A stretch of DNA of 64,000 bases, from NCBI RefSeq assembly GCF_014962245.1, contig NZ_CP063144.1, positions 486,582-550,581 of the forward strand. Reading direction: 5' to 3'. Below the pieces are notes generated by a model. It did not search any database, was not told the origin of the DNA, and saw only the letters and a program-made list of their open reading frames with translations. This DNA comes from Thermosphaera aggregans. GTDB lineage: Archaea; Thermoproteota; Thermoprotei_A; Sulfolobales; Desulfurococcaceae. Positions within the stretch are counted from its first letter, which is position 1, and every line of letters begins with the position of its first letter. Made by a program: the position numbers and the translations under genes. Shown in pieces: positions 8,229-20,499 of the stretch.

Positions 8229-10205
8229 GTGAGTATTAAACCTATCCCTATTTTAACTCTCCTAATCCTGCTAACAACTCTAACCCCGCTTGCAGCATCA
8301 CCAGATCCTGTGGGCGTTCACGGCGACTTCCCGCATGCCAGGGTAGTTGTCACAGAAGTGGTGGACGGGGACACGTTCTGCATATCCCCGCCGGTCTACG
8401 TAGGGGGAGAGTACAGGACGGTTGTCAGGCTAGCAGATATTGACGCGCCGGAGCTTGATACCTCTGAAGGACAGCAGGCATAGCAGGCCTTAACCAATCT
8501 ACTAGCACAGCATGGAGGAGTAGTATATCTGGACATAGACAAAGCTGGGGGCGTAGACGGTGAAGGAAGAGTTATAGCAGTAGCCTATGTAAGGGAGAAC
8601 ACAACCCACTTGTTAAACGTAAACAAGTGGATGATTGACAACAACCACGCTGTAGTAGAGGACTATCCAAACGACTTTGATCCTTCACAGTGGAACCTGT
8701 ACATAGAATACCCGATACAAAATGAGAAACTACCAACCATAACCAGGATACCCCTGCACAGTGGGGCAATAGCTAACAGTACTTCCTGGGGTGTTAGAGT
8801 AGCCGTCACACCTGATGGAAACTACATTGGAGTAGCATTCTCGGATTACGGTGGAGACTATACACTGCATGTTAGAATACTGGACAGAGAGGGGAACATC
8901 GTCAACAGCTACGACTACGGTCCAGATAAGGGATCTGACTGGTACGCCAACGTATGGCGCGGGATGTTGGACATAGCGGCTAATGAAACAGGCTTCATGG
9001 TAGCGTGGACAAACCTCACCAGAAGTGGTAATAGTAGAGTTGTACTGTACAGCTTCGTGCCAGTAACAGGCACTCCTACACAGCCACAACATATCTACCT
9101 GGATACTTATCAGAACCATCCGTTAGTCGCATTCTTCGAACACTCCAACGGCACTAGATGGTGGATTATAGGCTACGGCAAGCAGACCACCTCTGTATCC
9201 AGGTATACATTAAACCTCTTAGACTTGACGCCCCAATATACCAACAGATTCGCTAATGTAAATCTAGCTGGAGCACCTGCGGCTGACGTAAAGATTGGAG
9301 TAGACGTTATGGGCGGTTTAATATTTGATAATGTAACCAAATCGTTCCTCGTAGTTGCTAGGAATAAAACAACCGATCACAACATCATAGGTATTCATGG
9401 AAATTCTCATAGTACATTAGGCTTCTTTATATTCACCTACACCATTGACTCCAGGACCGGTGATCAAGGGCCAGAGCCTGATATGACTGGTAGCTACTCC
9501 TACTACAACGTCTACCCAATGTACACTGCACTGCTCGGTAGTGGCCGTTACTTGTTGACCGCTTATAATGAAAACTCCAGCGCGCTGGCATACGCTGTTT
9601 TCGATTTAGATACTAAGATTGTATCTCGCATATCTTTGTATGATTATGGTTCCGCTACAACCTATTACCCGTGGATTGCGGGAGGTAGCGGGAAGTGGTT
9701 GCTTGCCTACAGTGCAAGAGGCTATGTTAACATCACGCTGGTTAGTCCTGATGGCTCGAACACGGGCCTGGTCTCCCTGGCTGACAGGAGCTCCAGCTAT
9801 GTTAGAGTAGCCTATGATGCAGGAGCAGGGTTGTTCCCTGTAGCGTACTCGGTAAGGGATCTCGGCACGAGCAACTACGACCTGTTCCTGGCACTGGTCG
9901 GGGAGGACGGCGGCATCGGGAGTTTCGTCATACCGGTTAGCACAGACGATAGCGTTAGCAATATACCGGTGAACATGGTTGTGTTGCCAGGCGGATCACC
10001 TGGAACAGTGGTAGTCTTTGCTGTAGAGGGCAACGATCTCGTCGCATACTACGTGTCGAGCAATTATCCGGAAACCCTGCAGCCAATGCCTATTCCTGAG
10101 CCCGTCATCGTTTCACTAGCAGTTGCCGGCACCGGCGGAGCATTAGTAACATATATACGAAGAAGATTGAAGAGGAGTAAGCTCTCTTTCACAAACCTTT
10201 TTTAA
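8229..10205 (+). pseudogene. Secreted SNase-like nuclease/large extracellular protein with one in-frame TAG and a PEP-CTERM-like tail
   Basis: One reading frame runs from the GTG at 8229 to 10205, broken only by TAG at 8481-8483. The first 84 codons give a signal peptide (about residues 5-23) and the first half of a staphylococcal nuclease-like domain: VDGDTF with two Asp, then RLADIDAPE with the Arg, Asp and Glu of the active site. After the TAG the same frame continues the domain (GEGRVIAVAYV, where Arg matches the second catalytic Arg, then VNKWMIDNNHA). About 420 residues of repeat-rich, beta-strand-like extracellular sequence follow. The end reads PMPIPEP, a hydrophobic stretch of about 16 residues, then an Arg/Lys cluster: a sorting-signal or anchor layout. 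Either a fresh nonsense mutation, a sequencing error, or readthrough; if not read through, the downstream part could start at the TTG at 8610, but it would lack a signal peptide. Confidence 0.75.
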
Positions 10206-10409
10206 CACCCATTCCCGACTTCTTATCTGCCCAAGCAGCCCGGGACTGCTTGGAGCGCTGTGGAAAAACCCTGCTATGTAATCTTAATGGTTGCGCGACT
10301 GGGAAACGTCCAAGGCCCGCCCTCTCTGTAGCTGACCAGGGAATTATACTACTCTGGGTTTAGGGAGGCGTAAGACGTGAAACCACTGCATCAATTGGTT
10401 GCCGCTGGC

Positions 10410-10958
10410 TCAGGGGCTCGGGTAGGCTTGGAGTTTTTTCTTAACAACCTTGTGTTTTCTTTCAGCAGCTACTAGGCCTATTGCCGTGTTGTATAGTGTG
10501 AGTGCTGTTATCAACGGGTCCAGACGGATCCCCCAGGGAGTGTAGTTGAGGAGGAGGCCTATCAAGGGGATTACGGCGAGGGATAGGCCTATTGAGAGTG
10601 CGAGTCTTTCAAGGGGTTTTAAATCATCCTCACCTGGGTACAAGGCCTCTACGAGTACGTATCCTGGTAGGAAGAGAACGTATACTGTCCCGAGCAGGTA
10701 CCTCAGCGGTGTTAGAGTAGGCATGATGCCGCTGGCGTAGACTGTGGCTGCCGTTGCGATGGTTAAGATGATCAGGGTCCAGAACCATGCGGAGTAGTCT
10801 AGCCTGAGGATGTAGCTTCCAAGGGTTTTAGGAGGATCGGGGTCCACCAGCCTTATCCTTCCACGTGAGGCATTCTCGTAAGCAGTTTTCAGCGCTTTCC
10901 ACCTGCTCTTCTTCCCTAGCTTCGCAACATACTCCTCTAGAGTGATCTCGCGCTTCAT
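10410..10958 (-). CDS. DUF1616 membrane-domain protein
   Basis: About 182 residues. The conserved DUF1616 block is clear: LRYLLGTVYVLFLPGYVLVEALYP followed by LERLALSIGLSLAVIPLIGLLLNYTPWGIRL (given here in pieces of a longer motif, residues about 85-155). The protein has four membrane helices and a cytoplasmic N-terminus. Most DUF1616 proteins carry a C-terminal extracellular domain; here that part seems to be the separate gene just upstream (10961-11446). Start chosen at the ATG two bases after the upstream stop. Last gene of the archaeosortase/MoxR operon. Function unknown. Confidence 0.75.
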   Translation of the reverse strand: MKREITLEEYVAKLGKKSRWKALKTAYENASRGRIRLVDPDPPKTLGSYILRLDYSAWFWTLIILTIATAATVYASGIMPTLTPLRYLLGTVYVLFLPGYVLVEALYPGEDDLKPLERLALSIGLSLAVIPLIGLLLNYTPWGIRLDPLITALTLYNTAIGLVAAERKHKVVKKKLQAYPSP

Positions 10959-10960
10959 AA

Positions 10961-11446
10961 CTACCACTGTGTAACGTTCACGTATAGGTGAACCCACCTG
11001 CCAGTGTAAACCCAGCCCTCCCCAGTATTGTGAACCCAGAGCTCGAAAACCAGTGCAACCCTGGAGGGAAGGGTGGGGGAGTACACTGGGATTTTAACAG
11101 GGGTTTCCCACGACTCGTTGTGAGCTAGAACCAGCCTCCATTCCTTGAGAACCGGGGCTGGCGACTCCGTGGTGTTCGAGGGTAGGGTTTCACCCGTTGC
11201 GATCTTGTAGACTACTTTAAAATACCCTGTGCGTCCCAGGTTGTTGAACACGTATATGCACAGGTCCAGTGTCGACCCGTTGAGAACATTGCTAGGGTAC
11301 TCCCCTATTTTACAGTCCTGGTTGAGCAGGCCGATTGCCGTGAAGGGTTCAGGGTTCTCCGGCCTCAGAATCAAGGCTATCCCGAGCACAGCACCGATGA
11401 TCGAGACAGCGAGGACTACGGCGAATACTTCCTCATCCATGATCAT
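10961..11446 (-). CDS. Extracellular beta-rich protein resembling the C-terminal part of DUF1616 proteins
   Basis: A 161-residue protein: an N-terminal membrane helix (about residues 7-27) and an extracellular domain with two Cys, several NxS/T sites and the pattern FTAIGLLNQDCKIGEYP, similar in layout to the outer domain of DUF1616 proteins. It directly precedes the DUF1616 membrane gene with two bases between stop and start, so the two probably make one functional unit as a split protein. Function unknown. Confidence 0.6.
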   Translation of the reverse strand: MIMDEEVFAVVLAVSIIGAVLGIALILRPENPEPFTAIGLLNQDCKIGEYPSNVLNGSTLDLCIYVFNNLGRTGYFKVVYKIATGETLPSNTTESPAPVLKEWRLVLAHNESWETPVKIPVYSPTLPSRVALVFELWVHNTGEGWVYTGRWVHLYVNVTQW

Positions 11447-11447
11447 G

Positions 11448-11867
11448 CTAATACTCCCTCACAACCCACTTCCTCCTGGTTTTAAACCATAAGTAGATGT
11501 AAGCGCGTGGAAGCAGAGTGTAAACTAGGAGAGGAATGAGGGCGAGAACAGCCACGGAAGCAGCCTTCGAGGCTGTGTGGAGGAGGTATGCTTGCTGAGA
11601 ACCCTCCTCAAGATCCGCGATCATCGTGTCAACCTCGCTGAGGATTAAGCCAGCCCTGGCATGGTCACCCTGCTCAAATGCTTTAACAGCTTCATTAAGC
11701 TTATCTACAACGCTGCTAGCATCAACATGCTTAGCCTCCAGCTCCGCAATTCTTTCAACATACTCCGCGATCCTGGCGTCAAAGTCCTCGTTGTAAGCAG
11801 TGTAGAGCATGCTGAGCGAAAACGTGGCAAGCATCAACAAAGCTACCACAAACACTTTCCTATGCAT
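11448..11867 (-). CDS. Membrane protein with extracellular coiled-coil region
   Basis: A 139-residue protein: signal anchor at residues 4-24, a helical, charged region (about 30-90, with AELEAKHVDASSVVDKLNEAV) and a C-terminal helix (about 103-128) followed by a basic tail. I do not recognise a family. It lies one base from the next gene and shares the operon with DUF58 and MoxR genes, so it may be an envelope accessory protein. Similar small helical membrane proteins often accompany MoxR/DUF58 systems. Confidence 0.55.
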   Translation of the reverse strand: MHRKVFVVALLMLATFSLSMLYTAYNEDFDARIAEYVERIAELEAKHVDASSVVDKLNEAVKAFEQGDHARAGLILSEVDTMIADLEEGSQQAYLLHTASKAASVAVLALIPLLVYTLLPRAYIYLWFKTRRKWVVREY

Positions 11868-11915
11868 GGAAACCCCTGCGCTGTAATATTGGAATGTTGG
11901 GGAGGAGTAAAATAC

Positions 11916-13679
11916 CTAATCGCCAGGTAGGTTAACGAAGTACCCGTTATCCCTGAGCACCGTGGCTACCACTCCATACTTGTAGGCAAGAGGTTTCGAA
12001 AATATTAGGGTAACGTTCCTGACTCCTGGAGCCCTGGATTTAAAGGCATCGGCTAATCCTGCTCCAATACCTTTATAGTAGTCTTCGAGCTCGCCCACGA
12101 AACCCGTTGCCTCCCCCAGCTTAATAGTCCTTGTCCTGCTCCACGTGCTGTAATCGTGTAATGCTTTAACACCGTGCTTCCGGAAGATACTGTTGAATGC
12201 TGCGAGCACGTCGAGGATACTTCCATGAATATAGTATAGCTCCTCCCCGGGGATTTTCACGAAGAAGTGAACGCTGGATAACCCTCCATTCCCCCTCAGC
12301 CCACTTAACAGCTCCACGTATGTAGCAGTTACCAGCAAGTCCAGCTCCACCGGGTTTGCTGCAGTTAGATCCGAATACACGATTTTCTCCCCCAGGCCCC
12401 GTCCCCCGCCCCCCTCGGCCTCTTTGGTGAACAACTTGATGAACAAGCTTTCCTCCAACTCAAGCTTTAAACTCTTCTTCCAGTGAATCAGGTGCGGGTT
12501 GTCACCTGGGCTGTATTCGCGGGCGCCTGCGTAATCTCCTGTATAGGATTGAGCAAGCATCTTGGACACGTATTCCGCGACTTCACGCATCATCTTAGCT
12601 GCGAGGAGGAATCTGCTCCGTAAGCGTTGCTTACCCATAATGCTAGCTTTTGAAGAAGGCTCCGTTTCCTCACCCCCATGTTGCATCGTTCCCAAGTAAA
12701 GCGTGTCTAAACCAGCAGGCAGGAAAGCTTGTTTTTCAAGATCTTCACCACCAGTCCCGGGGCCTCCCCCTCCACCGGTAAGCCCCCTACCCAGCGATCC
12801 GTGTCCTAGTCCATCGGGCACGAGGTGTTCGCCAGCACCGTATTCCCCTACGCCCCCACCCTTCTCCAGCCTCACCACGAGTATTCTAGGAGCCGCTATG
12901 TACCTAGCGTACTCCTTCAGTATTCTCTCCGCTTCCCTTAGAAGCTGAACCGCCTTAACCATGACGGTGTACTGGAGGACAAACGGCCCGTGCACGGTGC
13001 TTGCAAGCCCTTTACCATCGCTCACGACTACTTGAACAAATGTCTCGTTAACCCCTACTTTCAACGCTTTAACCGCTAGCTCCAGATCCGCCTGGTTTAC
13101 AGCGCTCCCGCTTCTCACCTCACGCCCGTCCGCGAGCACTCTGTACTTGAAAAAGCCTGGGCACTTTATGGAAACCAGGTAATTAACCTGTCCACCAGCA
13201 TACACGGTTTTCCCAGCCTGCCTAACCTCTACCCGTGATCTTCCCACCCTAGCGCTCTCCTTCAACAAGCAAGCGGTGAAGCCAGCCACCACGGCTGTCA
13301 GCGGTACCAGTGAGTATGGGTTAACAATGAGCACTGGTGTGTAGAAGAACAGGGTTACTGCTACGGTTTTCCTTATACTTCCACGACCCTTCGCGTAGAG
13401 GATGAGGAACCCGAGGAAGGCTGTGGTGGACGCGGCTATAAGGATTACCGTGTTCCCGTTAAAGGATGATAGGAAGCTGGCACCTGTTGCTGCTGCGAAG
13501 AGAAGCCTTGAATCCCTGCTGAGAGCCATGAGGATGAACACAGGTAGTACTGCAATATACCAGTGAGCATCCAGGGTTAAACCCTCCACGCCCAGCCTGG
13601 CTATAAACGGGGCTGAGACGAGGAGGACAGCCGTGAAACCCTTTACAGCCTTACTCCGCGTAAACTGTCCTAGCAACAT
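11916..13679 (-). CDS. DUF58-domain membrane protein
   Basis: A 587-residue protein with five or so N-terminal membrane helices (residues 12-140), a beta-rich segment, and a DUF58 domain whose signature AREYSPGDNPHLIHWKKS lies near residues 384-401. DUF58 proteins are usually encoded beside MoxR AAA+ ATPases and are thought to act with them in maturation of envelope or secreted protein complexes. A Gly-rich, low-complexity insertion (about residues 279-325) precedes the DUF58 signature and is unusual. It overlaps the next upstream gene by 29 bases, indicating tight coupling. Confidence 0.85.
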   Translation of the reverse strand: MLLGQFTRSKAVKGFTAVLLVSAPFIARLGVEGLTLDAHWYIAVLPVFILMALSRDSRLLFAAATGASFLSSFNGNTVILIAASTTAFLGFLILYAKGRGSIRKTVAVTLFFYTPVLIVNPYSLVPLTAVVAGFTACLLKESARVGRSRVEVRQAGKTVYAGGQVNYLVSIKCPGFFKYRVLADGREVRSGSAVNQADLELAVKALKVGVNETFVQVVVSDGKGLASTVHGPFVLQYTVMVKAVQLLREAERILKEYARYIAAPRILVVRLEKGGGVGEYGAGEHLVPDGLGHGSLGRGLTGGGGGPGTGGEDLEKQAFLPAGLDTLYLGTMQHGGEETEPSSKASIMGKQRLRSRFLLAAKMMREVAEYVSKMLAQSYTGDYAGAREYSPGDNPHLIHWKKSLKLELEESLFIKLFTKEAEGGGGRGLGEKIVYSDLTAANPVELDLLVTATYVELLSGLRGNGGLSSVHFFVKIPGEELYYIHGSILDVLAAFNSIFRKHGVKALHDYSTWSRTRTIKLGEATGFVGELEDYYKGIGAGLADAFKSRAPGVRNVTLIFSKPLAYKYGVVATVLRDNGYFVNLPGD

Positions 13680-14514
13680 ATATGATCGCCACCGTGGCTA
13701 TTAAAGTGATGAAAGCCAGGTAGAAGGGGGATATGCCGTGCTGCCCGTGGAGAAGAGATTTCATATAGAGGAGTAGGTTGGGTCTCACCCATGACTGATC
13801 TATAAGGATGCTCCTGCCCGCTCTTACAGCTGAAAACCAGTCCCTGTTGAACTCGAGGACGCGGTTGGTTAAAACCCCTTTCGCCGACACTATTAGCATA
13901 AACCCCCTTCCCACCTCTATTTCAAACCCTACAGGAACCTCGCCCAGGTACTCGCCCACCGTGTAAAGGCCATCGCCGTGTTCGTCGATAAATGAGAAGT
14001 TGCTTGTGTATATAATTGGATGTACAGCGAGAGCTGGAGTGCTTGGAAGCCTTAAAGCAAACGGTGTGTCGATCACCAGGGTTGTGTTCAAGCGTGTGTC
14101 CCACGCTACTACGGTGCGGGAGTCTCCGGCATTGAAAACCGGGTCGTACACGTATCCCTCCAGCTCAGCGTCCAGGCCTAGAGTCTTCAGCAGTTGGAGG
14201 ATTACCTCAGGGGTTCCGAAAACAATCGCCAAGCCTCCTTTCTCGGAAAAATTAATTACGTAGTCCAGCTCGCCCTTATCCAGTAGCCTATCCCTCCCTA
14301 CCACGAGCAGTGCTGATTCAGCCTGGTTCTTCTCCAGCTCTTTCAGGCTGTACAGGGTAAGGCTTGACTCATGGCAGAGTGTAGAGTAGCCGTTGTCTCC
14401 CGTGTCCAGCACGTAGTAGTCGAGATTGGTGGGTAGCACTGCTATCAGGGATAGAGCTGTGAGCAGGCCTAGGAGTACGCTGTACGCTAGTATAGGGCTA
14501 GGCTTCCTCCTCAC
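13651..14514 (-). CDS. DUF4350-like membrane protein
   Basis: A 287-residue protein: an N-terminal membrane helix (about residues 8-27), a Rossmann-like domain with ALLVVGRDRLLDKGELDYVINFSEKGG and GLAIVFGTPE, and a C-terminal helix (about 262-282). This layout matches DUF4350 proteins, which are common partners of DUF58 and MoxR genes. The domain resembles glutamine-amidotransferase-like folds used as ligand or partner binding modules. Overlaps its neighbours on both sides. Function unknown. Confidence 0.65.
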   Translation of the reverse strand: MRRKPSPILAYSVLLGLLTALSLIAVLPTNLDYYVLDTGDNGYSTLCHESSLTLYSLKELEKNQAESALLVVGRDRLLDKGELDYVINFSEKGGLAIVFGTPEVILQLLKTLGLDAELEGYVYDPVFNAGDSRTVVAWDTRLNTTLVIDTPFALRLPSTPALAVHPIIYTSNFSFIDEHGDGLYTVGEYLGEVPVGFEIEVGRGFMLIVSAKGVLTNRVLEFNRDWFSAVRAGRSILIDQSWVRPNLLLYMKSLLHGQHGISPFYLAFITLIATVAIIYVARTVYAE

Positions 14515-16276
14515 TTAGAACACTCTCGTACACTTCTTTAGCTTCTTCTATGCTTGGCTTCTCCTTTGAATACATGTCTTTCTCCGCCAGGATTAGCAGC
14601 TTCCACGCTAACTCCTTGACTCTCCTGTTACCTACTACGTTTTCAACAACGAGAGAGTAGTGTTCTCGGAGAGTTTCATATGCTAGGGGAAGCCGTTGCG
14701 TCAGACGTCTAAGCAACTTATAGTATACCAGAGCCACCGCCGAGCCTAGGCCTGTGACATAGGGCTTCAGCAAATCCTGTGTTAGGTCGCGTATACCTCT
14801 GCTCATTTTCTCCACACCTCTCCGCAACCCCTTTTCCAGAAAGATGAAGAAAACCTTTTCCCGGTCTCGGAGGATGATAGTGGATGACACGCCCAGGATG
14901 AGGGTCAGGATTAACGACAACGTGTTGAAGACTACTACACGAGTCGTGTAACTGTAAGGATCGTAGTACCCGCTCGGATCCCTTACGGAGACCACTACTT
15001 CAATGAGGGAAAGGGGGAGCACGCTGCCGAGAACACGTAGAGAACAGTTAATGTTGAGTATGCTGGAAACCCTGCTTGTAAACAATCCCTTTGACTCAAC
15101 CTCGACGAGGAGATCATTGCCCGGGTCTCCCTGAATCAATACTGGGATCTCTCCATACGTGGTGAGTATTATTGATGGAACCATGATCTCAAGGCGGGGA
15201 TGCCTAGGCTCGTAGAACACCGGCTTATCGATGCAGTAGGAGAGCGTTGTCTCGGTGGAGTTAACGCAGAGTCTGATCAAGTTCTCGCCAAGAGTGAAGT
15301 TGTACATTGAGGTGTTAACACCTATTACCAGCGGGGTTGGCGCAACAGTTATGTTTCCAATAAGGGTTTCCCCAGCCCGGTTTCTAACGCTCACAATGCC
15401 CGGTATTTCAACAGAGGTTTCAGAGTAGATGGTCAGGTTTAAGTATTCTCCTCTCGTGATCTTTGACGGTGCCTCCAACGCGATTCTCGGGCGGGAGTAA
15501 AGCACCGTAATCCTTCTGTAGGGCTTGTAGACCATTTCCCCGCAAACTGCTTCAGCCATGACCGTGATCTTCACTGCTCCTTCTCTCCCAACATACTTCT
15601 CTACTAAGTAGGCTGGCGGGGTTGGGATTGAGGCGTTGCACTCGGTGGAGTTGCACTGGAAAATAGTGTTACCTAATACCTCTACCCCGGTGGACAAGTA
15701 TATGTTGCTGACCATGCAGCTCGAGTTTTTCACGGCTACGGTAACTAGCACGTCCTCCCCTGCTCTATAAGTGTCCCGGTTAGTGGTGATCGTGAGAGGC
15801 GAGTCTCTCTGCGAGATAACTGCTTTAAGCTCCCATATCCTGCTCTTCAGCTCTTCCAGCATCAGCTCTGCACTAGCTCTTAATGCGTAAGCCGACTCCC
15901 TATCCTGAGAGCAAGAGTGGAGCCGTTGCAGGTATTGGGTTACAGAGTCGACTCCTTCGTAAACCTCTCCTAGGATTCTAAGAGCCTCAGATCCCTCGTA
16001 TTCGCCGGATAACAGGCTGTAGTACTTGAGGAAAGCCCTGTACACTTTCTCGTGCAGGCTTGAAAGAGTAGGCTCTACTCGTGTTTCAAGCATTACTCTC
16101 GCATAGTATTCTCCAACGGGGGATCCGTCCAGAGCCTCGGTTAAAACCTTCTTAAAAACAGCTAACAAGTAGGTGCAGTCGGTAACGGGTTGAGGAGTAC
16201 TCAGGGTTTCAACAAGAAGTGTCTGCAGGATGAGGGTTGCAAGCAGTATTACAGCGACCGTTGCAACGAGTCTCAC
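14498..16276 (-). CDS. Large extracellular protein with Ig-like beta domains and a membrane anchor
   Basis: A 592-residue protein: signal peptide or anchor (residues 5-25), an alpha-helical part up to about 150, then beta-rich Ig-like segments (about 155-440) with NxS/T sites and Cys pairs, a membrane helix near 455-475, and a charged cytoplasmic helical region ending in acidic residues. The C-terminal cytoplasmic part, with REHYSLVVENVVGNRRVKELAWKLL, has the flavour of DUF4129-type tails found next to DUF58 genes, but this is weak. Sits in the middle of the MoxR/DUF58 operon. Confidence 0.6.
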   Translation of the reverse strand: MRLVATVAVILLATLILQTLLVETLSTPQPVTDCTYLLAVFKKVLTEALDGSPVGEYYARVMLETRVEPTLSSLHEKVYRAFLKYYSLLSGEYEGSEALRILGEVYEGVDSVTQYLQRLHSCSQDRESAYALRASAELMLEELKSRIWELKAVISQRDSPLTITTNRDTYRAGEDVLVTVAVKNSSCMVSNIYLSTGVEVLGNTIFQCNSTECNASIPTPPAYLVEKYVGREGAVKITVMAEAVCGEMVYKPYRRITVLYSRPRIALEAPSKITRGEYLNLTIYSETSVEIPGIVSVRNRAGETLIGNITVAPTPLVIGVNTSMYNFTLGENLIRLCVNSTETTLSYCIDKPVFYEPRHPRLEIMVPSIILTTYGEIPVLIQGDPGNDLLVEVESKGLFTSRVSSILNINCSLRVLGSVLPLSLIEVVVSVRDPSGYYDPYSYTTRVVVFNTLSLILTLILGVSSTIILRDREKVFFIFLEKGLRRGVEKMSRGIRDLTQDLLKPYVTGLGSAVALVYYKLLRRLTQRLPLAYETLREHYSLVVENVVGNRRVKELAWKLLILAEKDMYSKEKPSIEEAKEVYESVLSEEEA

Positions 16277-16536
16277 GCAGCAAGCACCCCGTAAACCCTG
16301 TAAGCTATGATGAGCGCGAACAATGCTAGGAGCGCAATGTTAAGGACTCTGACATGCCTGTACCCTGTGGCAGGACGGGTTAGAGCGTAGGAAACATAGT
16401 AGGCTAGGATGCTTAACGAGGCGTAGAAGTCCACCCGCTCCTCCCTGATAAGGCTCAGGGAGAGGGTTGAAACAGCCGTGAGCACTGTGAACATGAAGAT
16501 GAATGCGAGAACCCTATCCTGCAACTTCCCCAACAC
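16273..16536 (-). CDS. Small three-helix membrane protein
   Basis: An 87-residue protein with three hydrophobic segments (about residues 8-27, 36-50 and 64-84). No family recognised. Its start overlaps the previous gene by 23 bases and its end overlaps the next by four (ATGA type), so it is a genuine part of the operon. Confidence 0.55.
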   Translation of the reverse strand: MLGKLQDRVLAFIFMFTVLTAVSTLSLSLIREERVDFYASLSILAYYVSYALTRPATGYRHVRVLNIALLALFALIIAYRVYGVLAA

Positions 16537-17209
16537 CCAGCGTGATCAATACTCCATCAAGCGTTTGAGTTTTCTCAATAACTCTTAGATAATTAATCAT
16601 TGCAGCCCGGGCCAGCGTTGACGCAATAATGATCGAGTAGGGGTCAACCGGGTACTTCACATACTCTTTCAACGCATCAGCCAGCCCGCTAACGTAGACC
16701 CTGTAGATGTTCCCGGTTGCGGAAACCCCTACATCCCTAGCCATGCCTAGCTCCTCAATCACGATGGTTCGCAAAGCTTTCTCTATGGTATCCAGCTCCC
16801 CCGTGGACGACTCCACCAACTCCAACACAGGCATGTCAAGGGGTATTGCAAGGTAGGGTGAGCCACCGGCGAACCCGAGGCCCGGGTCAACCCTGCTAGG
16901 GCACGGTATCTTCGAGTAGACTGCGAGCACCTCGCTCCCTTTTGTAACAATGCACAAGCTGGCATCTAGCAGGTCGAGGTCTTCAATAGTGCTCGTAACC
17001 CCTTCCACCAGGATTTTCGAATAGTTTAGGAGAGATGAGACAGCAGGGTCTCGCGGTATCCTACTGTACGCTATGAACACTCCCCCTAGCACTCCCAGCG
17101 AAGCCGCTACACCGACTAAATTGTTATAGCCGGTTGCAAGCCCGTAGGCAGCTAAGAGCCCCGCTATTATAAGCATGTTCAACCCTAGCACGAGCAATTG
17201 CTGTGTCAT
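16514..17209 (-). CDS. Membrane-anchored cytoplasmic-domain protein of the MoxR operon
   Basis: A 231-residue protein with two N-terminal membrane helices (residues 5-48) and a soluble domain with the block GSPYLAIPLDMPVLELVE. Family not recognised. The start overlaps the end of the upstream gene by four bases. Its position between the small membrane proteins and the MoxR ATPase suggests it is a structural partner of the same system. Confidence 0.55.
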   Translation of the reverse strand: MTQQLLVLGLNMLIIAGLLAAYGLATGYNNLVGVAASLGVLGGVFIAYSRIPRDPAVSSLLNYSKILVEGVTSTIEDLDLLDASLCIVTKGSEVLAVYSKIPCPSRVDPGLGFAGGSPYLAIPLDMPVLELVESSTGELDTIEKALRTIVIEELGMARDVGVSATGNIYRVYVSGLADALKEYVKYPVDPYSIIIASTLARAAMINYLRVIEKTQTLDGVLITLGVGEVAG

Positions 17210-17898
17210 GCCAGCACCACCGCGAAGGGTCTCAATGCCAGGTCAAACACTAGTATGAGCCCTGCGGCACGGTGTTTCGCAAGTAAAATGTAAGCGTTCC
17301 TAGCCAGGTGGAGGCCGAGGAGTACTAGTAGGGCGGGGAGCCCCATGTTCACGAATGGCTGGGAGTAGAGCGTGAGGAATGCTAGAAGGGTGATCGCAAG
17401 CTTCAGCTCAACCCGCTTCTTAGACTCGAAGACAGGTATTGCTGAGAAAGCATCGATCAACCCGAGAACGATGAGTAGAAGAGGTTTATCGACACCCAAG
17501 TATACCCCTGCTATAATGCTTGCTAGAACCCCTACAGGTAGAAGTGGGGTTGCAACATGGCTGAAGCCCTCCTTAGCGTGAAACTGGTTTAGAATAAGAA
17601 GTATTAGTAAAATGTAAGCCGTGGATAACACTATTTCAACATTGAAGCCGGGGAAATAATCCACGAGTGCTTCGCATAGACACGTAGCAAGGAGGATCCC
17701 TGAGTAAACAATTAGCAAATCGCTAAGCTCGGCGGGGATACGGGCAAGGAAGAGGAGGTTTATCAAAATAATTGATAAGGCAAGCCCTGCAAAATAGCCT
17801 TGGCTTAGAACCCCGGCTTTAATGATAATGCTTGCTAATGCTATAGCAGAGATTAAGGCTACGTCCAGGTCGACAAGCCTACTTGGGGACTGGGACAT
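17206..17898 (-). CDS. Multi-pass membrane protein of the MoxR operon
   Basis: A 230-residue, highly hydrophobic protein with about seven to eight membrane helices and very short loops. No catalytic motif seen and no family recognised. It overlaps the MoxR gene by 20 bases and the next gene by four, so it is translated together with them. Could be a membrane scaffold for the archaeosortase/MoxR machinery. Confidence 0.55.
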   Translation of the reverse strand: MSQSPSRLVDLDVALISAIALASIIIKAGVLSQGYFAGLALSIILINLLFLARIPAELSDLLIVYSGILLATCLCEALVDYFPGFNVEIVLSTAYILLILLILNQFHAKEGFSHVATPLLPVGVLASIIAGVYLGVDKPLLLIVLGLIDAFSAIPVFESKKRVELKLAITLLAFLTLYSQPFVNMGLPALLVLLGLHLARNAYILLAKHRAAGLILVFDLALRPFAVVLA

Positions 17899-18841
17899 TT
17901 TTCAAAGCCTCTTCCGCTACAGCCTGGGTTGTCAACCCTTCCAGCTCGAACTCCTCGCCAAGCTTGAACCTGTGCGCTACCACCGGGATGAAAGCTTTCT
18001 TGACATCGTCGGGGATGACATAATCTCTCTTATCGATAAGCGCCATCACCCTGCTCACGTTGAGCAGGTTTATTGTTGCACGGTGTGATGGACCGTACAA
18101 AACGGCTTTATGGTTTCTCACGTAGTTGACAAGCCTCACCACGTAGTCAAGGATTTCATCGCTCGCGTGGACTAGTTCGTGAAGCCTTCTCGACACCTCT
18201 AAAACCCGTTTAGGAGTTGTCACCTGCTCTATGGGAAGGGTAACTATGTAATCCGACCTTCTCAATACTTCCAGCTCCTCCTCAGGCGGGTTGTAATAGC
18301 TGGGTGCAGACAGCGTGAACCTGTCGAGAAGGGTTTCCAACACTTTAAAAGCACCGCTCGAGATTTTCTCGGGAACCTGGGTGGCTATGACGGTGAAAGG
18401 TCTTTCAAGTGGAAGGGTGACACCCTCTATAGTAACCTGGTACTCCTGCATTGCCTCCAGGAGTGCGGCCTGGGACCGGGTGGGAGTTATGTTGAGCTCG
18501 TCGAACATAAGGATGTTGGTAAATATGGGGCCCTTTACAAGTATTCTCTCCCCTGTGATCCTGTATATGTGGAACCCTAGGATATCGCTGGGTAGCACGT
18601 CTGGGTGTCCCTGTATACGGTTGTACGTTCCCCCGATGGCTTTTGCAAGGGCTTTGGCTAGGAGCGTCTTACCTGTTCCAGGGTAGCCCTCTATTAGCAA
18701 GTGCCCGCCTGACAATAGAGCCCCTATCGATAGCTCCACGAGCTCCTTCTTCCCCACGTACACCCTTGAGATCTCGGAGAGTAAGTCGCCTATCTCCCGG
18801 CTTACCTCGTCGAACCCCATTCTCACCGCCTCGCTCATCAA
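17879..18841 (-). CDS. MoxR-family AAA+ ATPase
   Basis: A 320-residue MoxR-type AAA+ ATPase. Walker A is GYPGTGKT (about residues 52-59), Walker B is MFDELN (112-117), followed by the MoxR-typical SQAALLEAMQEYQVTIEG and PFTVIATQVP. The C-terminal lid domain carries GPSHRATINLL. MoxR proteins act as chaperones that insert cofactors or assemble complexes, with DUF58 and membrane partners such as those encoded next to it. The ATG overlaps the archaeosortase stop (ATGA). Confidence 0.92.
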   Translation of the reverse strand: MMSEAVRMGFDEVSREIGDLLSEISRVYVGKKELVELSIGALLSGGHLLIEGYPGTGKTLLAKALAKAIGGTYNRIQGHPDVLPSDILGFHIYRITGERILVKGPIFTNILMFDELNITPTRSQAALLEAMQEYQVTIEGVTLPLERPFTVIATQVPEKISSGAFKVLETLLDRFTLSAPSYYNPPEEELEVLRRSDYIVTLPIEQVTTPKRVLEVSRRLHELVHASDEILDYVVRLVNYVRNHKAVLYGPSHRATINLLNVSRVMALIDKRDYVIPDDVKKAFIPVVAHRFKLGEEFELEGLTTQAVAEEALKNVPVPK

Positions 18842-20499
18842 ACTTCACCACGCGTTCTACGCATCCTACCTATGAGAAGCACTGCTGATATATAGGCTAT
18901 GAGGATTACTAGTATTAAATACGTGCCGGCAGAGGATATGGTGATGAGGTCTGGTCCAACAAACCGGTTGGAGTACGGTATGGTGTTTGAGGACAGCTCA
19001 CTTAACAATACGGTTAACCGGGAGGCCAGGCTACCTGGTTCCCCGCTCTTCATTGCTGATACCCTGATGTAAACAGTGGTTTCAGCGTTGCCGATTCCTG
19101 CAGGGATGGGTAGCAGGGTGTAGGCTAGAACCCCTCTCCATCCCTGCTTCTCCAGTGATATGAAAACCACCCTCGTATTGTTTACTTCTTCAGCCCAGGA
19201 TGCTAGGATGTTGTACCCTTGGAGTGTGAGGCATAGCTGCCAGGTATGTAGTCTAGCAGGGGTGTCCACGACCTCAACATATCCAGTGTAGTACTCGTTG
19301 AAAGCTCTAATACCCACCCTGTACACTGCGAGAGCGCCGAGCACTCTTGTCAGGAAGGAATCATACTGCTTACTGGTGAAAGCGATGCTTCCTGTTGAAA
19401 GATACTTCTCAGGGTTTTCAACAATCTCCTCCACGCTTCCTGGGCGGATACCAACTGATTGACCCGGAGGTGTTCCCGTAGCGTGTACAGCCGCCGCGGT
19501 GAAGATGCTGGTGAATATTATTGACACGGCGAAGACTCCTAGAACATAGCTCCACGTAACTCTCTCTCCAACCTGTTTAACCAGAATTCTCGAGAATGTT
19601 TTTCTAAACCGTGCGTGTTTTTCAACAATCCTGAAAGCTATTACTGTGGAGATTGCGGAGTAGATCAGGGATGGGGAGTAGTGGAAGAAGTCGTAGGCTT
19701 GCTCCACCCCGAACCATTTAGCCATGTAAACCACTGTTAAAACCCTTATGATATTCCCCAGTATCCCTATGAAGAGGGAAGCGGCTACAGCAGCTATTGA
19801 AATGCCAGCTTTTCTAAGAGGCTTGTCAACACCGAATGTTAACATGTAGATGATTAAAGGTGCTATAGCGATCAGCGAGCTCACGGTTACAATCCCGGTG
19901 CACGCAGCCTCAACGCTCAGGATCGCTGTCTCCCCTGTTGACGTAACCACCTCTAGCTGGGTGAAACCCGGGGCCTCAACCACTCTAACCCCTGCGATAA
20001 AGCCCACCAGCCTCCCAACATACCTGGATAGGACAGGAGTTACTGAGTCGAGAAAGCTGGCCGGCAGAGGAGTTAGGAGGAGAGGTGTGAAAAGCGGAAT
20101 TAGCTCTCCGGGAGTGTTCGGCTCATACACCAGGGTTACGAGAGCTATGAAGAAGAGTGAGAAGCTTAAGGCTTGTAACTGAACCCTGTATTCTAGATCG
20201 ATGATTGAGAATTGGTAAATCGACAGGGAAAGTAGGGCTAGTAAAATTGATGCAAGTATCTTGCTAACTCTTAAACCGTAGGAGAACCCGGTGTACCTCA
20301 GTGAGAGGTATATCACGAAAAGCGTGGAGAAAAGCGCGACGAGGATGTAACTATACTCCTCAGTCAGGGCTAGCTTTACGAGGGAGGAGAAAAGGTCTCT
20401 GTAAACAGTTTGAATCGTTAACCCGAGCAGGAGAGAGATGAATGTGAACCCTATTGTCAACTTGTACGTGTAGTCCCTGTATGTGGTCTCGAGCACCAC
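18838..20499 (-). CDS. Archaeosortase fused to an EpsI-like C-terminal domain
   Basis: A 553-residue membrane protein. Residues about 15-295 form an exosortase/archaeosortase domain with eight or so helices and the catalytic triad in the expected order: Cys200 in EAACTGI, Arg252 in GNIIRVL, His273 in FFHYSP. These enzymes are thought to cut C-terminal sorting signals and attach the protein to a lipid or glycan. Residues about 320-515 are extracellular and include LHTWQLCLTLQGYNI, similar to the H-x-C-L-x-G pattern of EpsI (DUF3485) domains that accompany exosortases; a final helix (523-545) and basic tail end the protein. It is the first gene of the operon with its own TATA box. The EpsI assignment is inference. 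Confidence 0.82.
   Translation of the reverse strand: MVLETTYRDYTYKLTIGFTFISLLLGLTIQTVYRDLFSSLVKLALTEEYSYILVALFSTLFVIYLSLRYTGFSYGLRVSKILASILLALLSLSIYQFSIIDLEYRVQLQALSFSLFFIALVTLVYEPNTPGELIPLFTPLLLTPLPASFLDSVTPVLSRYVGRLVGFIAGVRVVEAPGFTQLEVVTSTGETAILSVEAACTGIVTVSSLIAIAPLIIYMLTFGVDKPLRKAGISIAAVAASLFIGILGNIIRVLTVVYMAKWFGVEQAYDFFHYSPSLIYSAISTVIAFRIVEKHARFRKTFSRILVKQVGERVTWSYVLGVFAVSIIFTSIFTAAAVHATGTPPGQSVGIRPGSVEEIVENPEKYLSTGSIAFTSKQYDSFLTRVLGALAVYRVGIRAFNEYYTGYVEVVDTPARLHTWQLCLTLQGYNILASWAEEVNNTRVVFISLEKQGWRGVLAYTLLPIPAGIGNAETTVYIRVSAMKSGEPGSLASRLTVLLSELSSNTIPYSNRFVGPDLITISSAGTYLILVILIAYISAVLLIGRMRRTRGEV

Follow-up and report, generated by a model that had tools for sequence, protein, structure and literature searches.

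This study concerns an eleven-gene operon on the minus strand of a 64,000-nucleotide stretch of the Thermosphaera aggregans genome (NCBI RefSeq contig NZ_CP063144.1, positions 486,582 to 550,581; hereafter the window), in which a gene for an archaeosortase/exosortase-family protein (sort) stands with genes for a MoxR ATPase, a DUF58 protein and several membrane proteins. Archaeosortase A of Haloferax is a membrane enzyme that acts on C-terminal tripartite signals (PGF-CTERM) in archaea, as we propose for the enzyme of this operon. The present system differs in its motif (P[IV]PEP, not PGF), in the lack of an ArtA match and in its operon context. The sources on Archaeosortase A (Haft 2012, Abdul Halim 2013) are cited in PMC8241124. 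PEP-CTERM/exosortase systems (EpsH; Haft 2006, PMC1569441) likewise combine an EpsH core carrying Cys, Arg and His with secreted proteins that end in P-E-P, a transmembrane (TM) segment and a basic tail. Unlike them, the system described here is crenarchaeal, its enzyme falls below every named exosortase/archaeosortase subfamily cut-off and has a fused outer domain without a DUF3485 match, and its setting is a MoxR/DUF58 operon.

The other genes of the operon also have described counterparts. Bacterial MoxR-DUF58-transglutaminase/FN3 clusters (for example the Bifidobacterium PFNA operon, PMC8430577) share with it MoxR, DUF58 and a surface protein of the immunoglobulin (Ig)/FN3 type; no transglutaminase or kinase was found here, and DUF4350, DUF1616 and archaeosortase are present instead. 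Nine of the eleven genes form a core that corresponds to a known system, which Makarova, Galperin and Koonin (2015, PMC5898192) described around arCOG01314 and predicted to serve secretion. Common to both are a single neighbourhood with DUF4350, a MoxR/GvpN ATPase and an Ig plus von Willebrand factor A-type protein, an Ig S-layer-like protein, DUF1616 (pfam07760) proteins and a membrane protein with 2-3 TM segments; the gene set of that system (DUF4350, MoxR, DUF58-type, Ig and DUF1616) stands together in the window. The text of that paper nowhere mentions sortases. It marks Thaumarchaeota as lacking arCOG01314, whereas we find the module in Nitrososphaeria- and Asgard-labelled genomes; in addition, the Ig protein here ends in DUF4129, and the archaeosortase and a membrane protein, m1, have joined the module in one clade.

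We favor, with moderate confidence, the view that an ancient envelope module was joined in one crenarchaeal clade by a PEP-CTERM-type archaeosortase, which probably processes P[IV]PEP-tailed secreted proteins beside the module. A sequence-only reading of this DNA had considered the joining of such an enzyme to a MoxR/DUF58 module to be undescribed as far as it knew, and our literature search agrees: no paper joined archaeosortase with MoxR or DUF58, although subscription papers lay outside the search, which is not proof of absence. Of the papers searched, only one, a Haloferax glycoproteome, had archaeosortase and DUF1616 together, and a paper on a Thermococcales Ig module (PMC8416519) does not mention MoxR, DUF58 or DUF1616. 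As far as the searchable literature goes, the new elements are the coupling of the archaeosortase, the signal it probably recognizes and the fact that it was inactivated repeatedly; the core was already known as a predicted system.

Results

The 1.3-Mb T. aggregans genome, which was covered by 20 spaced 20-kb stretches (~31%) plus pattern searches, contains four matches to the pattern PIPEP, three of which lie 28-38 residues from the end of an open reading frame (ORF) and are followed by a TM segment. Two of these three ORFs, encoding proteins of 332 and 230 amino acids, start with a hydrophobic, signal-like stretch; the third is an interrupted gene on the plus strand of the window (8229..10205), encoding a staphylococcal nuclease (SNase)-type surface protein that is a probable archaeosortase substrate. 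The tail of this protein consists of PMPIPEP, a TM segment and RRRLKR (sorting signal at 10089..10192, pattern match G000:C1:496670). A single in-frame TAG at 8481-8483 breaks the frame, which is open in the ortholog of genome G067; it may mark a pseudogene, a sequence error or readthrough. The ortholog L159 matches the SNase family PF00565 (2.7e-6) and has the same C-terminal signal. The motif is kept in G067 and, as PIPEN, in G101, both of which have sort, and the protein ends without it in G041, which has no sort. A 37-residue tail used as a protein query against the T. aggregans genome recovered only itself. Among known models, TIGR02595 (PEP_CTERM) matched one PVPEP tail (L286) of a same-genus genome (16.2, cut-off 16) and none of the three substrates of T. 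aggregans.

Occurrence of the signal follows the state of the enzyme. Genomes were classed as having an intact, dead or absent archaeosortase before the motif search, the intact group being the rows of a 33-row alignment with the full C200/R252/H273 triad, and the C-termini were filtered by criteria chosen for this test (20-55 residues, hydrophobicity and ORF length). Forty other genomes yielded ten exact PIPEP+TM C-termini, all in genomes with an intact triad (three each in G003 and G014, one each in G013, G033, G067 and G101), and none in the 6 genomes with a dead enzyme or the 20 without sort. With T. aggregans included, such tails occur in 7/15 intact-triad genomes and 0/26 others (p = 3e-4); counted by match, the figures are 13/36 and 0/30 (p = 1e-4). 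Near misses of the filter were L217 and L243 of G014, both at contig edges, and L222 of G105. These patterns make the P[IV]PEP-TM-basic tail the probable cognate signal of the archaeosortase.

Other tagged proteins in relatives include subtilases, a phospholipase D-type protein and an Amidase_3 protein. The last (L248:1204-2574, G003) has a PIPEP tail and matches N-acetylmuramoyl-L-alanine amidase at 1e-52; it would appear to be a peptidoglycan hydrolase anchored to the surface of an archaeal cell. As a separate observation, PEF-, PLFP- or similar tails (a P-rich motif, a TM segment and basic residues) are borne by proteins encoded beside modules without sort in L120 and, on contigs with Nitrososphaeria or Brockarchaeota labels, in L110, L112, L114, L138 and L132; some of these genomes have an archaeosortase elsewhere. 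As a sign of coupling these tails are only suggestive, and they may be common there.

We then asked of the order as a whole how enzyme and module are distributed. In 117 genomes, an archaeosortase is present in 27 (in one as a broken remnant) and a strong match to the N-terminal half of DUF1616 (DUF1616-N) in 37; 21 genomes have both, a co-occurrence with a Fisher p of 4e-9 that ignores kinship. The archaeosortase gene adjoins module genes in 24 of the 26 non-remnant genomes, or 24 of the 25 that can be assessed. The exceptions are G083, where it lies elsewhere and is catalytically dead, and G115, where it sits at a contig end. Its position varies: some loci have it at the 5' end ahead of MoxR, others have it inserted between MoxR and m1 or placed behind DUF58, and in others again it is divergent. 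Full-length members of the family, looked for in 398 genomes of the phylum, are found almost exclusively in the order; outside it there are two strong matches (G442, G404), the rest being weaker and mostly core-only matches in longer proteins. In many other genomes of the phylum (G191, G194, G268, G389, G396 and others), proteins of ~590-750 amino acids with the archaeosortase core N-terminally have a different, longer architecture. A locus of a same-family genome (L050 of G030, ~9572-10339) holds remnants of DUF1616-N and of an archaeosortase, the latter a fragment interrupted by a TGA; here the module is decaying in place.

DUF1616-N served as bait for a set of 80 named loci, which therefore samples modules and not archaeosortases. 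In a tree built by a quick method from six core proteins (67 rows; support by the Shimodaira-Hasegawa-like approximate likelihood ratio test only), 23 of the 24 sort-labelled rows group in a single clade with support 100, L145 being the outlier. This clade comprises 28 rows, in which the enzyme is intact in 14, dead in 9 and absent in 5, where "absent" on a named contig means absent from the locus (L084, L096). The membrane protein m1 is confined to the same clade; of the 17 loci in which it was found, 15 have sort, and the two others are a Thermogladius-like pair, L069, whose sort is dead and unlinked, and L096, with sort not in the locus. The archaeosortase thus appears, from its phylogenetic distribution, to have been gained mainly once, as an accessory dedicated to one crenarchaeal clade. 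The sequence-only reading had named as its refutation that most relatives would carry the module with no linked archaeosortase, and this is largely the case: the core gene occurs alone in 16 of the 37 genomes, and 38 of the 39 rows outside the clade lack the enzyme.

The enzyme itself (18838..20499, 553 amino acids) has a multi-TM EpsH core with C200, R252 and H273, an extracellular C-terminal domain and a last TM segment (AlphaFold2 model: predicted local distance difference test [pLDDT] 81, predicted template-modeling score [pTM] 0.83). It scores above the superfamily cut-offs (PF09721, 3e-15, 56.6 bits versus 25.7; TIGR04178, 31.7 versus 23) and above none of those of the named NCBIfam subfamilies (ArtC, ArtE, XrtA, XrtV and others), the best being XrtV (32.5 versus 313) and XrtA (30.2 versus 208). 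The outer domain bears E409, H418, C423, Q427 and W435. A resemblance to EpsI seen by eye (H..W..CL..QGY) was not supported, as no DUF3485/EpsI match appeared in 16 members at E 1 in Pfam and NCBIfam; a fold search of the PDB gave weak PsbP/START-like matches to this domain (E 0.01). A sequence search of the PDB with the archaeosortase or the DUF58 protein found no relatives.

All three catalytic residues are kept in 21 of the 33 archaeosortase rows, and at least one is missing in the other 12. The gene tree requires nine changes of state, eight of them forced by well-supported branches; among the dead rows, several sit on long branches whose position in the tree is uncertain. Dead rows keep P144 and P146 (12/12) and W435 (10/10). 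Four residues that are invariant in intact rows are kept less often: N249 in 4/12, F272 in 1/11, C423 in 3/9 and Q427 in 5/9. For C423 the difference (20/20 intact versus 3/9 dead) has p = 2e-4, ignoring kinship. C423 and Q427 may accordingly serve catalysis, to judge from this conservation, and the dead copies seem to be kept for another reason. That they are plain pseudogenes is unlikely, given long open frames on end branches of up to ~4 changes per site and the retained structural residues; weaker cases are the contig-edge fragments L040 and L053 and the short, divergent L072, L073 and L087.

The operon comprises 11 ORFs running from 20499 to 10410, whose coordinates and domain names agree with those first read from the sequence. 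Stop/start overlaps, taken in that reading to run through the operon, are present at eight of the ten junctions (sort/MoxR, 4 bases; MoxR/m1, 20; m1/m2, 4; m2/m3, 23; m3/Ig, 4; Ig/DUF4350, 17; DUF4350/DUF58, 29; DUF1616C/DUF1616N, 37), but gaps separate DUF58 from cc (48 bases) and cc from DUF1616C (1 base). The operon is real and non-random: chance clustering can be dismissed because the same linked gene set recurs in dozens of archaeal genomes. It consists of two parts, a core of nine genes (encoding MoxR, the small membrane proteins m2 and m3, the Ig-DUF4129 protein, DUF4350, DUF58, a coiled-coil protein and a split DUF1616) and a lineage-specific addition, the archaeosortase with m1. The order DUF1616C, DUF1616N, m2, m3, Ig-DUF4129, DUF4350, MoxR, DUF58 recurs among the named loci, on contigs labelled Nitrososphaeria, Bathyarchaeota, Brockarchaeota, Methanosuratincola, Caldivirga and Vulcanisaeta; a Baldrarchaeum-labelled contig has the core in rearranged form. 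We conclude that the core is an old archaeal envelope module, older than the addition of the archaeosortase. In several lineages (L119, L132, L142), genes that by eye resemble glycosyltransferases of the dolichol-phosphate-mannose-synthase type adjoin the core, a possible link to surface glycosylation.

Behind sort lies the gene for the MoxR-family AAA+ ATPase (17879..18841, 320 amino acids; AAA_3 1e-41, AAA_lid_2 2e-16), followed by m1 (17206..17898, 230 amino acids), a hydrophobic membrane protein without a Pfam match. The product of m2 (16514..17209, 231 amino acids), a membrane protein with a soluble C-terminal region, also has no Pfam match and is conserved across TACK archaea; m3 (16273..16536, 87 amino acids) is a small membrane protein that nearly all modules keep between m2 and the Ig gene. 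The Ig/macroglobulin (MG)-like surface protein (14498..16276, 592 amino acids) was modeled by AlphaFold2 (pLDDT 84) as an N-terminal hydrophobic segment, a helical bundle, three Ig/MG-like domains, a TM segment and a C-terminal helical domain. Foldseek matched it to alpha-2-macroglobulin and Ig arrays with E 2e-10 and a low TM-score. The Ig-like domains had been recognized from the sequence, but not the C-terminal domain, which is DUF4129 (PF13559) in 6 of 13 members (best 1e-7). Because the Ig protein ends in DUF4129, the operon belongs with MoxR-DUF58-DUF4129 modules.

The DUF4350 protein (arCOG01314-like; 13651..14514, 287 amino acids, C-terminal TM segment) matches PF14258 at 1.7e-6 and 28.8 bits, just under the cut-off of 30.4, and its orthologs lie far above it (4e-16 and 2e-17). 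The DUF58 protein (11916..13679, 587 amino acids) has no Pfam match, and PF01882 by itself does not pick it out in this genome; seven of nine aligned relatives match PF01882, and the alignment shows an invariant block, GxYxGxRxYxxGDxxxxIHWKKS, of the PGD-x-x-IHWKKS type. DUF4350 and DUF58 are seemingly fused into one protein of ~790-850 amino acids in L042, L044, L046, L051, L053 and L054, and such fusion suggests that the separate proteins may contact each other directly. Orthologs of the coiled-coil protein cc (11448..11867, 139 amino acids, C-terminal TM segment) occupy the same place in many modules, and in L058 and L060 cc is joined to DUF1616C. The C-terminal, extracellular half of DUF1616 (DUF1616C; 10961..11446, 161 amino acids; PF07760 positions 152-274, 1e-10) is encoded ahead of the N-terminal, membrane half (DUF1616N; 10410..10997, 195 amino acids; PF07760 positions 2-123, 3.4e-32). 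L154, on a Methanoculleus-labelled contig, has a single N-to-C chain, and L117 and L142, among several Nitrososphaeria-type contigs, have a single chain with the C half first; from these chain orders we conclude that DUF1616 is permuted in these archaea and here also cut into two genes.

Discussion

In the mechanism we propose, Sec would export secreted proteins that end in a P[IV]PEP-TM-basic tail, and this tail would keep them in the membrane. The archaeosortase would cut at the motif by means of C200/R252/H273, aided by C423 and Q427 of the outer domain, and join the cut protein to a surface anchor. The module would be a platform adjoining this processing, with the Ig and DUF1616 domains outside and MoxR remodeling its DUF58/DUF4129 partners. 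Where a lineage has no PIPEP proteins, the enzyme would decay to a non-catalytic subunit or be lost. Cleavage and anchoring are argued by analogy with known sorting enzymes; the platform role of the module, and any contact, physical or functional, that it makes with the archaeosortase, are put forward less firmly.

Several points weigh against this proposal. The core lives without an archaeosortase in most archaea and hence does not need it, and contact of the enzyme with the module is putative. An exact PIPEP tail is missing from about half of the genomes with an intact enzyme, and substrates are few: T. aggregans has three, of which one lies near the operon, the one with the in-frame stop. 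The Fisher tests take no account of common descent; the positive genomes do, however, come from four families. A wider motif was run in nine genomes with its matches read in part, which is not a fair count; it gave three PVPEP tails, all in two same-genus genomes with sort, and some of the proteins bearing them resemble the substrates of T. aggregans.

The sequence-only reading had seen in the eleven genes a possible machine for processing and placing surface proteins. A role in handling surface proteins is supported by the signal, which occurs only with intact enzymes, but that the eleven genes form one machine is not supported. A related idea, to which we give a low probability, is that the MoxR-DUF58-DUF4350-DUF1616 module is a dedicated machine for the delivery and assembly of tail-tagged surface proteins, to which the archaeosortase was recruited and on which it docks, being kept in many lineages as a catalytically dead, structural pseudo-sortase. 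If this is true, the substrates beside Nitrososphaeria modules without sort reflect the same coupling with the enzyme unlinked.

Doubtful, in our judgment, is a chiefly structural role of the archaeosortase-like protein in the machine, with catalysis secondary or vestigial. Catalytic residues were lost in 12/33 homologs, through at least eight changes of state, while the frames stayed long and open and the structural residues persisted; this would fit such a role, as would the linkage retained by dead copies (L054, L051, L032, L036, L089, L095). Yet 21/33 retain the whole triad despite deep divergence, it is precisely these that the PIPEP signal follows, and several members of the clade dropped the gene while retaining the core. 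That enzyme and module work independently and share no more than transcription, as genes related to the surface, is unlikely: although the core is found without the enzyme in most archaea and the substrates are scattered, generic secreted hydrolases, the linkage survives many rearrangements (24/25 genomes) and the family with the outer domain hardly occurs apart from the module. Processing of the module's own subunits (DUF4350, cc, Ig) instead of separate secreted proteins is very improbable: DUF4350 and cc do end in TM segments with basic residues, but their tails in the window have no P[IV]PEP motif, for which reason we rejected both as substrates; tails of this kind are also found in modules that lack the enzyme.

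Processing of P[IV]PEP-tailed proteins beside the module, the view we prefer, would extend PEP-CTERM-type sorting to hyperthermophilic Crenarchaeota and would supply a natural set of inactive archaeosortases on which structure and function can be studied. MoxR/DUF58 modules occur widely among bacteria and archaea, and the clade with sort offers a handle on them in the form of a linked enzyme, a tail signal and candidate clients; the role of the module can be tested across organisms in which the enzyme is intact, dead or absent.

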